A stretch of 39,877 nt of DNA from Terriglobales bacterium (lineage in GTDB: Bacteria > Acidobacteriota > Terriglobia > Terriglobales > Acidobacteriaceae), in assembly GCA_035454605.1 (NCBI GenBank), contig DATIGQ010000014.1, positions 1 to 39,877 on the forward strand, in the 5' to 3' direction. Below are positions 7,818 through 15,437 of this stretch, piece by piece (positions within the stretch are counted from its first letter, which is position 1; each line of letters opens with the position of its first letter). The translations under genes and the position numbers were made by a program. Under the pieces are notes generated by a model. It did no database searches. It saw only the letters and a program-made list of their open reading frames with translations, and was not told where the DNA came from.

Positions 7818-8258
7818 ATGTTTCGCGGCAATCATCCAACCCGCGTGGACGAAAAAGGGCGACTCAAGGTCCCGGCGGAGTTCAAGCGCCTGATCGACGA
7901 AAAGTATTCGGCCCAGTTCTACATCACCAGCGTGGATGGGCAACGGGCGCAGATTTACCCCTTCGAGGAGTGGGAGCGCATCGAGGAGAAGCTGGCCCGG
8001 CTGTCCAACTTCAATCCCACCAAGAAGAAGCTCTTGAATCGCACCAATTATTACGGCCAGGCCGTGGAGATGGATGCCCAGGGGCGCCTGTTGATTCCGC
8101 CCATTCTGCGCCAGGCGGCGCAGTTGCGGGGCGAGGTAGCGGTGCTGGGCAACCTGACCTACCTGGAAGTGCGGAACATGGAAGCGTTCCGCAAGGAGTT
8201 GGAGGAGAGTCCGTTCACGCTTGAGGACGAGAAGACCCTGGACGACTTGGGTATTTAA
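7818..8258 (+). CDS. mraZ: MraZ, transcriptional regulator of the dcw cluster
   Basis: DNA-binding protein of 146 aa with two swapped-hairpin AbrB-like halves. It starts MFRGNHPTRVDEKGRLKVPAEF, matching the family start (MFRG...D.KGRL..P), and the second half repeats the pattern as VEMDAQGRLLIPPILRQAA. In characterised bacteria MraZ forms ring-shaped oligomers and represses its own operon; the boxes at 7584-7613 fit that role here. It is the first gene of the cluster, followed by rsmH after 43 nt. No strong Shine-Dalgarno precedes the ATG; instead a GNRA-loop hairpin lies 10 nt upstream. Confidence 0.96.
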   Translation: MFRGNHPTRVDEKGRLKVPAEFKRLIDEKYSAQFYITSVDGQRAQIYPFEEWERIEEKLARLSNFNPTKKKLLNRTNYYGQAVEMDAQGRLLIPPILRQAAQLRGEVAVLGNLTYLEVRNMEAFRKELEESPFTLEDEKTLDDLGI

Positions 8259-8301: not shown

Positions 8302-9249
8302 ATGGCAGCAGGGTTTGCAAGCAACGCCCCTCAGGGGGGCGGGCATGGCACGGATGGGGAGTTTGGCCATGTCTCGGTTCTTTTAAAAGAAGCGATCGAT
8401 TTCCTGGCCATTCGGCGTGGCGGCACCTATATCGACGCCACCCTGGGCTCGGGCGGACACGCGTATGCCATCGCAAGACGCCTCGGCGCTCAGGGTCGTT
8501 TGATTGGGCTCGATAGGGATCCCGCCGCGCTCGCGATAGCCCGCCGGCGCCTGGAGCCGCCTCCCGCACAACGGGAGGACTGGCCGCAGGTGGTCGTCGA
8601 GCAGGCCGCATTCTCCGAACTGGAGCGTTGGGTGACTCCGGGTTCGGCGGATGGGCTGCTGGCCGACCTAGGCGTCAGCTCGTTGCAGTTTGACGATCCG
8701 CGGCGGGGGTTCAGTTTTCAGGCGGAAGGACCGCTCGACATGCGCATGGACCCGCGCAGCGAGCGCACCGCCGATCAAGTGGTAAATCGCCTCGACGAGG
8801 TCACACTCGCCAAGGTGATTTACGAATTCGGTGAGGAAAGGAGGTCGCGGAGAATCGCCAGAGCCATTGTCCGGGCGCGGCCGATACGAAACACCGCTCA
8901 TCTAGCACAAGTCATATCGGCCGCGTTCCGGTCAATGAAACCCGGGCGCATTCATCCTGCGACGCGTACTTTCCAAGCAATCCGGATTCACGTGAACCGC
9001 GAACTGGAGGAGCTCGGGGCACTGCTCGGAGCAGCGCCCCGGGTCCTGAGGCCGGGAGGGAGGCTGGTGATCCTCAGCTTCCACTCGCTGGAGGACCGCA
9101 TGGTGAAGGACGCGTTGCGGGAAGGTGCGCGCCAGGCAGTGTACGCCGTGCTGACTCGCAAGCCGGTCCCGGCCGGCGAACCGGAAATCGAGCGCAACCC
9201 GCGGGCCCGCAGCGCGAAACTGCGCGCGGCGGAGCGCCTGGCGGAATGA
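8302..9249 (+). CDS. rsmH: RsmH (MraW), 16S rRNA C1402 N4-methyltransferase
   Basis: SAM-dependent methyltransferase of 315 aa that N4-methylates C1402 of 16S rRNA. HVSVLLKEAIDFL opens the conserved domain. The SAM-binding loop is YIDATLGSGGHA (about 43-54), with LLADLGVSSLQFD further on. The C-terminus carries ILSFHSLEDRMVK and NPRARSAKLRAAERL, both family hallmarks. About 20 residues precede the usual start of the family, but no later in-frame start codon exists before HVSVLL, so ATG 8302 stands. Second gene of the dcw cluster, as in most bacteria. Confidence 0.97.
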   Translation: MAAGFASNAPQGGGHGTDGEFGHVSVLLKEAIDFLAIRRGGTYIDATLGSGGHAYAIARRLGAQGRLIGLDRDPAALAIARRRLEPPPAQREDWPQVVVEQAAFSELERWVTPGSADGLLADLGVSSLQFDDPRRGFSFQAEGPLDMRMDPRSERTADQVVNRLDEVTLAKVIYEFGEERRSRRIARAIVRARPIRNTAHLAQVISAAFRSMKPGRIHPATRTFQAIRIHVNRELEELGALLGAAPRVLRPGGRLVILSFHSLEDRMVKDALREGARQAVYAVLTRKPVPAGEPEIERNPRARSAKLRAAERLAE

Positions 9250-9254
9250 ACAGG

Positions 9255-9338
9255 TTTCGGGACGGCATCGCCTACCTGACTTGGGCGAACGACAAAGCAG
9301 TTCCACAACCAACCTACCTTTACGATGCCGTCCCGGAA
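9255..9338 (+). other. candidate structured RNA element upstream of the 54-aa gene and ftsL
   Basis: The segment 9255-9270 pairs with 9323-9338: a perfect 13-bp core (CGGGACGGCATCG with CGATGCCGTCCCG) plus three outer pairs, one of them G-U. The 52-nt apical part can form an inner hairpin (GAAC 287-290 with GTTC 300-303, and TTG 281-283 with CAA 306-308). CCAACCT (309-315) in the apical part is complementary to AGGTTGG (346-352), which lies just outside the stem and only 2 nt before the Shine-Dalgarno GGAGGTG (355-361). This would allow a pseudoknot or a switch. The element begins 5 nt after the rsmH stop. It could also be a small inverted-repeat mobile remnant. Confidence 0.6.
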
Positions 9339-9365
9339 AAGGTTGAGGTTGGACGGAGGTGAAGG

Positions 9366-9530
9366 ATGCATAGGGGAACGATGATCGACGAATTGATTGC
9401 TACGGTGGAGCGTGCCGAACACACGGCATGCTGCGACCCGGCCCCGCAGCCGGCGCAACCGAAAGCGGAGGTGTTCGTGCCGTACGCCTATTCCGCGGCG
9501 CACGCGCTGGAACTGGTTGAGGTGGCTTAG
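9366..9530 (+). CDS. 54-aa small protein between rsmH and ftsL, function unknown
   Basis: I do not recognise this protein. The ORF begins ATG 9366 with an ideal Shine-Dalgarno (GGAGGTG, 9355-9361, 4 nt spacing) and ends TAG 9528-9530, where the last G is the first base of the ftsL GTG start, so ftsL is probably translated by coupling. The product begins MHRGTMIDELIATVERAEH, has two adjacent Cys (ACCDP), a Pro/Ala/Gln-rich middle and a tail PYAYSAAHALELVEVA. It has no membrane segment. Position and signals argue strongly that it is translated; it may be a coupling ORF for ftsL or a small cytoplasmic division factor. Confidence 0.75.
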   Translation: MHRGTMIDELIATVERAEHTACCDPAPQPAQPKAEVFVPYAYSAAHALELVEVA

Positions 9531-10024
9531 TGGCGGCCGGGGCGATCCCCACCACGCGTACCGTGCGCTCGCAGTTGGTCAGCGGGCGCGCGGCGCGGCG
9601 GCCCTCCCCCGCACGCGCGGGCACCCCGGAGATTTACTTTCCCAAGGCCATCGACAATTCCCGCCTGGTGCGCGTGGTGGACCGGCAGCGCAACCGCGAG
9701 ATGGCCATGTTCACCGTCGCAGTGTGCGCGTTGTTCGCGCTGGTCATGGTCTACGCCGGCCAGCATTTCAGCTCCATCGAATATGGCTACAAGCTGGAGG
9801 CACTGAAGGCGCAGCGCGACGCGCTGGTGGAACAGAACCGCGCCTTGCGCCTGGAGGATGCATCGCTGCGCAGCCCGGAACGCATTGACGCCCTGGCGCG
9901 ACAGATGGGCCTGGAGGCTCCGCGCGTCGGCCAGATGATGCGATTGGAGACCCCGGGCGCCGACCTGGGCGCGCCGGTAATGGCGCGCGCGGCAAGCGTC
10001 CTGGTTATCTCGCCGCAGCCTTAA
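9530..10024 (+). CDS. ftsL: FtsL-like cell division protein
   Basis: Bitopic divisome protein of 164 aa. FtsL forms a complex with FtsQ and FtsB and activates FtsWI. The cytoplasmic N-terminus (1-58) is basic and longer than in E. coli; one membrane segment follows (about 59-79, MFTVAVCALFALVMVYAGQHF), then a periplasmic coiled coil (about 81-115, KLEALKAQRDALVEQNRALRLED) and a short tail with SPERIDALARQMGL, a motif seen in FtsL/FtsB-type proteins. The start is GTG, overlapping the preceding stop by one base. Sequence identity in this family is low, so the call rests on topology and on position between rsmH and ftsI. Confidence 0.88.
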   Translation: MAAGAIPTTRTVRSQLVSGRAARRPSPARAGTPEIYFPKAIDNSRLVRVVDRQRNREMAMFTVAVCALFALVMVYAGQHFSSIEYGYKLEALKAQRDALVEQNRALRLEDASLRSPERIDALARQMGLEAPRVGQMMRLETPGADLGAPVMARAASVLVISPQP

Positions 10025-12446: not shown

Positions 12447-13973
12447 ATGACTTTTCGCCAGCTCCTCGACGGTGTCGAAACCCTGGCCCAGCGCGGGAAT
12501 CCTGAGATTACCGGCATCCAGTACGATTCCCGGCGCATCTCGCCCGGCGACCTGTTCGTGGCCATGCGCGGGGAGACCACCGACGGCAACCGCTACATCG
12601 AGCAGGCCATCGCGGGTGGCGCAGCCGCCGTCGTGAGCGACACCGCGGAGACCGCGCCCCACGCCGGCATCGCCTGGGCCCACGTGCCCCATGGCCGCCA
12701 GGCCCTGGCCCGGTTGGCCGCCAACTTCTACGGACGCCCCGCGGTGCGTATGAGGCTCACCGGCATCACCGGCACCAACGGCAAGACCACGTCCGCTTTC
12801 CTGGCCGAAGCCATCCTGGGGGCCATGGGTCGGACGTCGGCTCTGCTGGGGACGGTCGAGTATCACATCGGGCCGGAGGTGTTGCCGGCGCCACATACCA
12901 CGCCCGAATCCCTGGAGATTCACCGCCTGCTCGACCGGGCGTCCCGCCAGGGCGCCAGCGAGCTGGTGATGGAGGTTTCCTCGCACGCCCTGGCGCAGCA
13001 GCGCGTTTTCGGCCTGCCCTTCGACGTAGCCGTCTTCACCAACCTGACCCGCGACCACCTCGACTATCACGGCGATTTCGAAGACTACTTCGAAGCCAAG
13101 AAATTCCTGTTTGCCGGCTGCGGTTCCGAGCCGCCGCGCCTCGCCGTGCTGAACGCCGACGACGACTACGGCGTGCGCCTGGTGCCCTTCGCCAAATCGC
13201 AGGGATCGCTGGTGGTCACCTACGGCATCGAGCGCGGCGACTTTCAGGCTACGCGCATCAACATGGGACCGCAGGGCACCACGTTCGTTCTGGCCACACC
13301 CCGAGGCTCGGCGTCGATTTCGACCCATCTCATCGGCCGCGTCAACGTGTACAACATCCTGGCCGCTGCCGCTGCCGCGGTGGGGCGCGGCTGCTCGCTG
13401 GATGCCATCCGTCGCGGTGTAGCCGCGGTGCACCGCGTTCCCGGGCGCTTCGAGTCGGTAGACTGCGGGCAGCCCTTTGCGGTGGTAGTGGACTACGCCC
13501 ACACCGACGACGCCTTGCGCAATCTCACTGCCGTGGCCCGCGCCTTCGTCAGCCGGGAAGGGCACGCGGGTCGGGTGATCACTCTGTTCGGCTGCGGCGG
13601 CGATCGCGACCGCACCAAGCGCCCGCTCATGGGGGACGCCGCGGGGCGGGGCAGTGACTTCGTCCTGCTCACTTCCGACAATCCGCGCAGCGAGGATCCG
13701 CTGGCCATCATCAACGACGCCCTGGTTGGCCTGCAGAAGACCGGCACCCGCCACCTGGTGGAACCCGATCGCCGCCGCGCCATCGAGCGTGCCATCGCCG
13801 AGGCCCGTACCGGTGACATCGTGCTGATCGCCGGCAAGGGCCACGAGCGCGTGCAGGTGAGCGCGGCCGGCAGCCTTCCCTTTGACGACGTCGAAGTAGC
13901 CCGCGAAACCCTGCGGGCCGCCGGATACACCCTGGAGAGCCAGGAAGCGGCTGTCGCCGGAGGCCGTCGTTGA
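12447..13973 (+). CDS. murE: MurE, UDP-MurNAc-tripeptide synthetase (meso-DAP adding)
   Basis: Cytoplasmic ATP-dependent ligase of 508 aa that adds the third amino acid to UDP-MurNAc-L-Ala-D-Glu. Domains: N-terminal UDP-binding (about 20-95), central ATPase with GITGTNGKTT (106-115) and the YFEAKKFLF region holding the Lys that is carbamylated, and the C-terminal domain with DNPRSEDP from Asp 411. DNPR is the meso-diaminopimelate specificity motif, so the organism should have DAP-type peptidoglycan. The gene has its own TATAAT box and probably a near-leaderless start; its stop overlaps the murF start. Confidence 0.97.
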   Translation: MTFRQLLDGVETLAQRGNPEITGIQYDSRRISPGDLFVAMRGETTDGNRYIEQAIAGGAAAVVSDTAETAPHAGIAWAHVPHGRQALARLAANFYGRPAVRMRLTGITGTNGKTTSAFLAEAILGAMGRTSALLGTVEYHIGPEVLPAPHTTPESLEIHRLLDRASRQGASELVMEVSSHALAQQRVFGLPFDVAVFTNLTRDHLDYHGDFEDYFEAKKFLFAGCGSEPPRLAVLNADDDYGVRLVPFAKSQGSLVVTYGIERGDFQATRINMGPQGTTFVLATPRGSASISTHLIGRVNVYNILAAAAAAVGRGCSLDAIRRGVAAVHRVPGRFESVDCGQPFAVVVDYAHTDDALRNLTAVARAFVSREGHAGRVITLFGCGGDRDRTKRPLMGDAAGRGSDFVLLTSDNPRSEDPLAIINDALVGLQKTGTRHLVEPDRRRAIERAIAEARTGDIVLIAGKGHERVQVSAAGSLPFDDVEVARETLRAAGYTLESQEAAVAGGRR

Positions 13974-15358
13974 AGCTCCCCCTCCAGCGCGTGGCGGAGT
14001 TCGTGGCCGCCGCAGGCGAATTCGACCCCGGCGCCGTCGCCCAGGGTTACTCCATCGACTCACGCACGGTGAAGCCGGGCGAGCTGTTCTTCGCCGTGCA
14101 GGGCGAGCGGCTCGATGGCCACGATTTCGTTCCTCAGGCGCTCGCCGCCGGCGCCGTGGCGGCCGTGGTCAGCCAGAAGAAGATGGGCGGGTTCAGCCAC
14201 CGCTCCCGCCTTCTGGTGGTGGAAGACACACTGTCCTCCCTGCAATCGCTGGGCGCTGCGGTGCGCCGCACCTGGGGTGGTCCACTCGTGGCCGTTACCG
14301 GATCCGCCGGCAAGACCACCACCAAGGAAGCCATCGCCCGGCTCCTCTCCCTCAAGCTTCGGGTGATGAAGTCGGAAGGCAACCTCAACAACCACTTCGG
14401 GCTGCCCCTGCAGTTGCTGCGCCTGGAGCCGGAGCATCAGGTAGCCGTGGTGGAGCTGGGCATGTCACACGCCGGCGAGATTGCCGCGCTCGCGCGCATC
14501 GCTCGTCCCGACATCGGCGTGGTGACGAACGTGGCCCCTGTGCATCTGGGGTTCTTCACTTCGGTGGCGGAGATTGCGCGCGCCAAGTACGAACTCATCG
14601 AGTCCCTGTCGGCCGGTGGCGTGGCCGTGCTCAACGCCGACGACGAGTACGTCTCCCGCTTCGGCCGCGAGTTCGCCGGCCGCGTTGTCACCTTCGCGCT
14701 CCACCATCCGGCCGACGTTCGCGCCGAGGCCGTCGAGGACCTCGGCGTCCGCGGCAGCCGCTTTGAGATCGTCGCCGGAGGCCAGCGTCGTTCCGCCACC
14801 CTGCCGCTGCTTGGCCGGCATAGCATCTACAACGCCCTGGCCGCCGTGGCTGTGGCGCTGGAGCGCGGCATTCCGCTCGACCAGGCTGCTTCCGCGCTCG
14901 CCTCCCTGCCGGCGGGGGAGCGTCGTGGAGAAGTCTTGGACTTGGCCGGCGTCACCGTGGTCAACGATTGCTACAATTCCAACCCGCGTGCCCTCGACGC
15001 CATGGTAGACACCCTGGCCGGCATTCCCGCCCGGCGGCGTATTGTCGTGGCCGGTGAGATGCTGGAACTTGGACCTTCGGCTCCCGAGCTGCACCGCCGT
15101 TGTGGCGCGCATATGGCTCAGGCCGGCATCGACTTGCTGGTGGGCGTACGCGGCAACGCGGAACACATCGTCGAAGGCGCTCTTGCCGCCGGCGTCAAAG
15201 CGCATTTCCTGGCGACTCCCGAAGAAGCCGGAGAGTGGCTGGCCCGCGAGGTCGCTACCGGGGATGCGGTGCTGCTGAAGGCTTCTCGCGGAGTGCGGCT
15301 GGAGAAAGCGCTGGAGGTCTGGCAGGCGCGCCGGGAAGCCGCGGCTGCCACGGGTTGA
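13970..15358 (+). CDS. murF: MurF, UDP-MurNAc-pentapeptide synthetase
   Basis: ATP-dependent ligase of 462 aa adding D-Ala-D-Ala to UDP-MurNAc-tripeptide. The P-loop reads AVTGSAGKTTTKE (108-120), followed by EGNLNNHFGLPLQLL, a MurF signature, and NADDEY in the central domain; NDCYNSNPRALDAM marks the C-terminal domain. The start is TTG 13970, overlapping the murE stop by 3 nt, with GGAGG (about 13959-13963) ahead of it, so translation is coupled to murE. A ddl gene, which supplies the D-Ala-D-Ala substrate, is not found in this cluster. Confidence 0.97.
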   Translation: MKLPLQRVAEFVAAAGEFDPGAVAQGYSIDSRTVKPGELFFAVQGERLDGHDFVPQALAAGAVAAVVSQKKMGGFSHRSRLLVVEDTLSSLQSLGAAVRRTWGGPLVAVTGSAGKTTTKEAIARLLSLKLRVMKSEGNLNNHFGLPLQLLRLEPEHQVAVVELGMSHAGEIAALARIARPDIGVVTNVAPVHLGFFTSVAEIARAKYELIESLSAGGVAVLNADDEYVSRFGREFAGRVVTFALHHPADVRAEAVEDLGVRGSRFEIVAGGQRRSATLPLLGRHSIYNALAAVAVALERGIPLDQAASALASLPAGERRGEVLDLAGVTVVNDCYNSNPRALDAMVDTLAGIPARRRIVVAGEMLELGPSAPELHRRCGAHMAQAGIDLLVGVRGNAEHIVEGALAAGVKAHFLATPEEAGEWLAREVATGDAVLLKASRGVRLEKALEVWQARREAAAATG

Positions 15359-15361
15359 GGG

Positions 15362-15437
15362 TTTCTCGTTTTTCGATTTCTCGAAAAGCCGGCCACGAGA
15401 AACGAGAAACGCGAAACGAGAAACGGGTTACGAGGGG
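15362..15437. repeat. inverted heptanucleotide arrays filling the murF-mraY gap
   Basis: Right arm: six 7-bp units from 396 to 437 (CGAGAAA, CGAGAAA, CGCGAAA, CGAGAAA, CGGGTTA, CGAGGGG). Left arm: TTTCTCG (362-368), TTTTTCG (369-375) and an 8-bp variant (376-383), the reverse complement of the same unit. The arms are separated by AAAAGCCGGCCA and can fold into a long hairpin in the mRNA. The left arm starts 4 nt after the murF stop, and the last unit CGAGGGG lies 7 nt before the mraY start, where it can serve as Shine-Dalgarno. Confidence 0.9.

Follow-up and report, generated by a model that had tools for sequence, protein, structure and literature searches.

A conserved structured RNA between rsmH and ftsL in an acidobacterial family, a candidate control element for FtsL synthesis

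The gap between the genes rsmH and ftsL in a family of Acidobacteria holds a structured RNA whose stem of 14-16 bp is shown computationally to be maintained by compensatory mutations, to be active as coding-strand RNA and to occupy one fixed genomic place. About 30 genera have retained its shape through matched mutations, which makes a role in controlling FtsL production probable. The reading favored here, with a probability of roughly 0.6, is that of a cis-acting ftsL control RNA with a recognized core, which would work at translation initiation or mRNA processing. In some well-studied bacteria the division protein FtsL is scarce and activity-limiting, and in Bacillus subtilis its level is reportedly set by MraZ. 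With a conserved RNA in front of ftsL, division control in a family of Acidobacteria would gain a layer at the RNA level. The RNA would also be a new Rfam family, comprising two subtypes, and could be tested in culture if any cultured member carries a copy.

The element was found in a window of 39,877 nucleotides (the whole stretch of DNA that was analyzed), in which the element and the genes around it lie on the forward (+) strand. The dcw-cluster gene mraZ (7818-8258; Pfam PF02381, 6e-22) lies upstream, and rsmH, also called mraW (8302-9249; Pfam PF01795, 1.5e-95), immediately precedes the element; both identities are clear from Pfam and NCBIfam. The inverted repeat sits in the gap between rsmH and an open reading frame (ORF) of 54 amino acids (9366-9530), which starts with an ATG at 9366, is served by the Shine-Dalgarno (SD) sequence GGAGGTG at 9355-9361 and is kept in type A relatives (defined below) without a match in Pfam or NCBIfam. 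It is followed by ftsL (9530-10024), which has a weak Pfam DivIC/FtsL match and an NCBIfam ftsL_broad match (6.7e-8) that is under the cut-off of that model. The two overlap by one base (TAG/GTG, 9528-9530), just as an earlier sequence-only reading of this DNA had it, and the positions it gave for CCAACCT (9309-9315), AGGTTGG (9346-9352) and the SD were correct. No promoter-like or intrinsic-terminator-like site was seen in window positions 8900-9600. The N-terminus of the small ORF is conserved as M(Y/H)xGTMIDELI..VERAE in the window and in relatives L011, L049 and L053. Elsewhere in the window, more inverted repeats (22 nt, 82%; 18 nt, 83%) lie at 15354-15424, where the ORF 13970-15358 ends.

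The stem, P1, is formed by a 5' strand at 9255-9270 (TTTCGGGACGGCATCG) and a 3' strand at 9323-9338 (CGATGCCGTCCCGGAA), both defined by the inverted repeat, the fold and covariation. The 16-bp stem with one G-U pair and 52-nt spacing that had been proposed is indeed present: 15 of its 16 pairs are Watson-Crick and one is G-U, with the arms 52 nt apart. Folding positions 9250-9345 returns exactly P1 at -35.9 kcal/mol (z = -4.0; none of 200 shuffles equals it). For the longer stretch 9240-9375, the energy is ordinary (z -0.3) and the minimum free energy fold competes with P1, so the case from the window by itself is modest. P1 is the sole perfect 13-bp inverted repeat with a gap of 20-100 nt in the window; about 0.18 such repeats are expected by chance, which makes it only mildly unusual on these grounds. 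It is the comparative sequence evidence that settles the reality of the stem.

In the type A alignment of 41 sequences, 98.1% of the P1 cells are paired and 12 of the 14 pairs show a double compensatory change; in type B (51 distinct sequences) the figures are 98.3% and 9 of 15 pairs, and both alignments lean towards the structure because they were fitted to a covariance model. The type A covariation score was reached by none of 500 shuffles, and slid controls were 38-52% paired. The same signal is seen in the first alignment, A2, which was made with MAFFT free of structure from 14 sequences and has eight pairs with a double compensatory change. Across both subtypes, P1 contains 188 G-U cells against 6 A-C cells, and it is therefore the sense-strand RNA, that of the operon's coding strand, on which selection acts. 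Compensatory changes beyond the shuffled and slid controls, together with this strand-specific wobble, argue that the element is a conserved structured RNA, and the earlier claim of an RNA structure located in cis is borne out, with the structure conserved, covarying and tied to ftsL. A long inverted repeat within the dcw cluster could also be a DNA palindrome to which a transcription regulator, for example MraZ, might bind. Such a palindrome is already contradicted by the wobble asymmetry, as only one strand accepts G-U pairs (188:6), and with arms 52 nt apart and an asymmetric loop core it is scarcely credible.

The distribution of the element was followed outwards from the window. By DNA search, the sister species and two further genera proved to have the stem in the corresponding gap, and the rsmH-ftsL gaps of 30 relatives found via RsmH held many more stems with arms that were altered and still complementary. 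A covariance model built from type A sequences, R1, matches 42 of 300 genomes of the family and 20 of 79 genera. Wherever rsmH coordinates are known these matches lie just downstream of it, and there is one match per genome, except for one additional copy in the window's own genome and a few antisense matches at the same place. In a sample of 298 genomes of the order, the type B model R3 matches 89 genomes and the type A model R2 matches 34, five of which match both. The element is thus present, essentially as a single copy, in 118 of the 298 genomes and 30 of the 70 genera, where E-values are rough (short calibration) and many matches come from related species and are not independent events. 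The absence of the stem from relatives had been named beforehand as a refutation; the stem is instead kept in about 30 genera. Around 60% of the sampled genomes of the order are without a match, which indicates that some lineages can dispense with the element. The covariance models found no match outside the family, in the class samples or the phylum sample, and two patterns run against IMG/VR for viral carriers gave none. The loci of the named RsmH relatives (Acidobacteriaceae and Terracidiphilus MAGs; Terriglobia) had no R2 match, and for this reason the family name is one that we infer.

Two subtypes can be told apart. Type A, which includes the window, is located before the 54-aa ORF and ftsL. 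Type B, first met as weak matches in genus g34, has no small ORF and sits immediately in front of ftsL; its consensus is GAUCGGGCCGGGGUYGUCCCACC...AGGCGAAAG...CCUUCC...AGCRAYCCCGGCCCGGUU. The genus g70 is matched by both the type A and the type B model, which supports common descent and joins the two subtypes. Of all matches, 46 of type A and 55 of type B were read as sequence: 45 of the former precede FtsL, and 52 of the latter have rsmH upstream. Apart from one orphan copy described below, the exceptions to this context stem from short stretches or from the strictness of a pattern. That the element depends on the 54-aa ORF was considered and rejected since type B does without it, and the link to this gene drawn in the sequence-only reading does not hold as a general feature. 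In some type A members (L021, L029, L035, L082 and L083) a large extra hairpin is inserted in the variable loop region downstream of GGCGAA, and genus g66 (L068, L070, L071) shows an additional hairpin, with GUGGUA at its apex, just upstream of the element (CCGTGGTAGG).

The only copy that is truly elsewhere, away from ftsL, is the second one in the window's genome, on contig C35 at 8419-8517 on the minus strand (8418-8519 by sequence search; L002:1502-1600). It is 73% identical to the first, diverged yet foldable (56.7-63 bits), with no rsmH or ftsL in its stretch, and lies about 1.1 kb from tRNA-Leu(taa) with an integrase fragment between. This second copy had suggested a mobile inverted repeat (MITE or REP-like) that inserted before ftsL, until the stem appeared in place in other genera. 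Synteny and covariation already contradict an insertion: the element occurs as a single copy in the same place in about 30 genera, its stem evolves by compensation, its wobble is strand-asymmetric (188:6) and no target-site duplication was seen by eye at either copy, all of which leaves a mobile origin extremely improbable. The search for copies scattered at unrelated loci with target-site duplications, proposed along with this alternative, yielded nothing beyond that one diverged orphan in this genome.

The orphan also bears on whether the RNA acts in trans, as a small RNA (sRNA) freed from the operon transcript between rsmH and ftsL. A precedent for an sRNA within untranslated RNA of the dcw cluster exists in UpsM, which lies in the dcw leader of Rhodobacter sphaeroides and affects dcw mRNA levels (PMC8625941), and a diverged, foldable copy away from ftsL would suit such a role. 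However, the position before ftsL is fixed in all other genomes examined, and there is neither a terminator after the element nor a promoter before it, so a trans-acting sRNA is unlikely. UpsM resembles the element as a structured untranslated RNA of the dcw operon; it differs in lying at the 5' end of the operon and in an alphaproteobacterium, and is, together with the mraW motif discussed below, the closest by theme, not by sequence.

Above P1, both subtypes have G(U)CC opposite GGCGAA, within a near-invariant loop core of the form G[U]CC...GGCGAA...CC.UCC. In the window, a hairpin atop P1 termed P2 (9270-9286) is formed by GCCU at 9270-9273 with GGGC at 9283-9286. A longer form, UCGCCUA/UGGGCGA, is possible, which competes with the uppermost pairs of P1. 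In the type A alignment, 99.4% of the P2 cells are paired and mostly invariant, and covariation in P2 is weak for that reason. The near-invariant core word of this region, GGGCGAA in the window (9283-9289), has its counterpart in GGGCGA at 43 of 45 type A loci and in GGCGAAAG at 49 of 51 type B loci. Type B offers the upper P1 5' strand an alternative partner in an inner GACAAC or GACGAC. One type B member (L103) has a G-to-A change that is matched in both partners of the P1 5' strand, as would be expected of a strand-exchange switch, though a member of genus g78 (L220) breaks the inner alternative pairing.

A further candidate helix, P3, would join the loop to the sequence that follows the stem. 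In many members, the C-rich end of the loop pairs with a sequence beginning a few nucleotides 3' of P1, and the letters differ by genus: examples are UCCUUCCA/UGGAAGGA, CCUUCCUCA/UGAGGAAGG, UCUACCUUC/GAAGGUAGA and CAAAAUCCU/AGGAUUUUG. In the window, the 5' side is the C-rich 3' part of the loop (9300-9321; GUUCC...CCAACCUACCUUU), and the 3' side is the flank at 9338-9352 (AAAGGUUGAGGUUGG), which ends 2 nt before the SD. The longest Watson-Crick run is greater with a member's own flank than with swapped flanks (p=0.0096 for type A, 0.0008 for type B), p-values that are optimistic because this test was picked after seeing two others. With shuffled flanks and G-U allowed the combined p is about 0.03, and RNAduplex energies give a weak signal at the genus level (A -1.3 +/- 0.6, B -1.2 +/- 0.7 kcal/mol). 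The register varies; genera g24 and g66 have no clear P3 and g2 only a weak one. This lends moderate support to a pairing between the loop segment and the flank that directly follows the stem. P3 would be sterically tight when P1 is fully formed, and it may therefore be an alternative to P1, not a simultaneous pseudoknot. The loop-flank switch of the sequence-only reading survives in part: the pairing beats swapped flanks in both subtypes, but CCAACCT:AGGTTGG itself is this genome's own version, the sister species having ACCTTTT:AAAAGGT. The proposed contact with the ribosome site is not supported as a general feature, as the type B start codon is about 60 nt away.

How the element might act can be outlined as follows. 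It would set the output of the next cistron, which is FtsL, in type A via the overlapping small ORF; the association with this one downstream gene is fixed across genera. The choice would lie between P1 and the competing pairings of the core and of the C-rich loop with the 3' flank, and that choice would alter ribosome access. The trigger would probably be a protein or ligand that recognizes the conserved core. Intrinsic termination was dropped as a mechanism, with none seen in window positions 8900-9600, and translation initiation or mRNA processing is therefore likelier than transcription attenuation. In type A, the start codon follows P1 by a median of 34 nt, and blocking the P1 5' strand lowers the predicted SD accessibility from 0.53 to 0.31. 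Formation of P1 may thus hold the ribosome site open, and the site may close when P1 is lost. The same shift, however, is what the release of a C-rich strand would produce in any G-rich context. In type B, the distance from P1 to the ftsL start is 14-103 nt (about 60) and the effect on SD accessibility is small, so occlusion of the ribosome site is not the whole story. Such a variable distance does not fit simple SD sequestration, and the idea that the C-rich loop generally sequesters the SD, hinted at by type A and with little effect in type B, was set aside.

The same variable distance, particularly in type B, is among the points in favor of the stem acting in mRNA processing or stability. 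A long mid-operon stem rich in G+C, with neither promoter nor terminator seen, could be cut by an RNase III type enzyme or protect an end, so that the rsmH and ftsL transcripts diverge in fate with no ribosome switch. A plain stem, however, leaves both the near-invariant GGCGAA and G(U)CC core and the loop-flank helix unexplained, and this account is held only tentatively. Also rather unlikely is a new class of riboswitch-like or protein-sensing RNA through which a signal (a cell-wall precursor, the state of the ribosome or a dcw-encoded protein such as RsmH) would be coupled to FtsL synthesis. If true, a signal-sensing RNA class would feed through FtsL synthesis into the decision to divide. 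Pseudoknot translational riboswitches and protein-binding leaders share with the element a closing stem, a conserved core and, in type A, a candidate loop-flank pairing by the SD. The element differs from them in its single target operon and in the distance of type B from the start codon.

The cis-acting element favored here is an RNA family absent from Rfam 15: neither the window nor the type A and type B relatives gave a match at the gathering score. The closest by neighborhood is the mraW RNA motif (RF01746), a candidate cis-regulatory RNA of Actinomycetales (Weinberg et al. 2010, PMC2864571). Both are candidate cis-regulatory RNAs beside the same gene (mraW is rsmH), but the window element is located after rsmH and did not match RF01746 at the gathering score or at E<=10. 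Acido-1 (RF01686) and Acido-Lenti-1 (RF01687) are likewise structured RNAs described from Acidobacteria, and differ in that Rfam 15 gave no match of either to the element or its relatives. Searches of the open-access literature gave no description of the element, which may nevertheless have been mentioned earlier outside Rfam, as in a 2017 catalogue of 224 motifs.

Some genera that are free of the element have another conserved structure in the rsmH-ftsL gap (L215, L216, L224, L030, L032, L038, L125 and L126). It consists of CUCCGGAAAACCUGCCGGAG, then CCCGGCACAGCUGUAAUGGCGUGCCGGG and often GGUUCCGUGGUAGGAAUCC, and has no Rfam match. One locus, L026 (genome G015), carries both this structure and the element.
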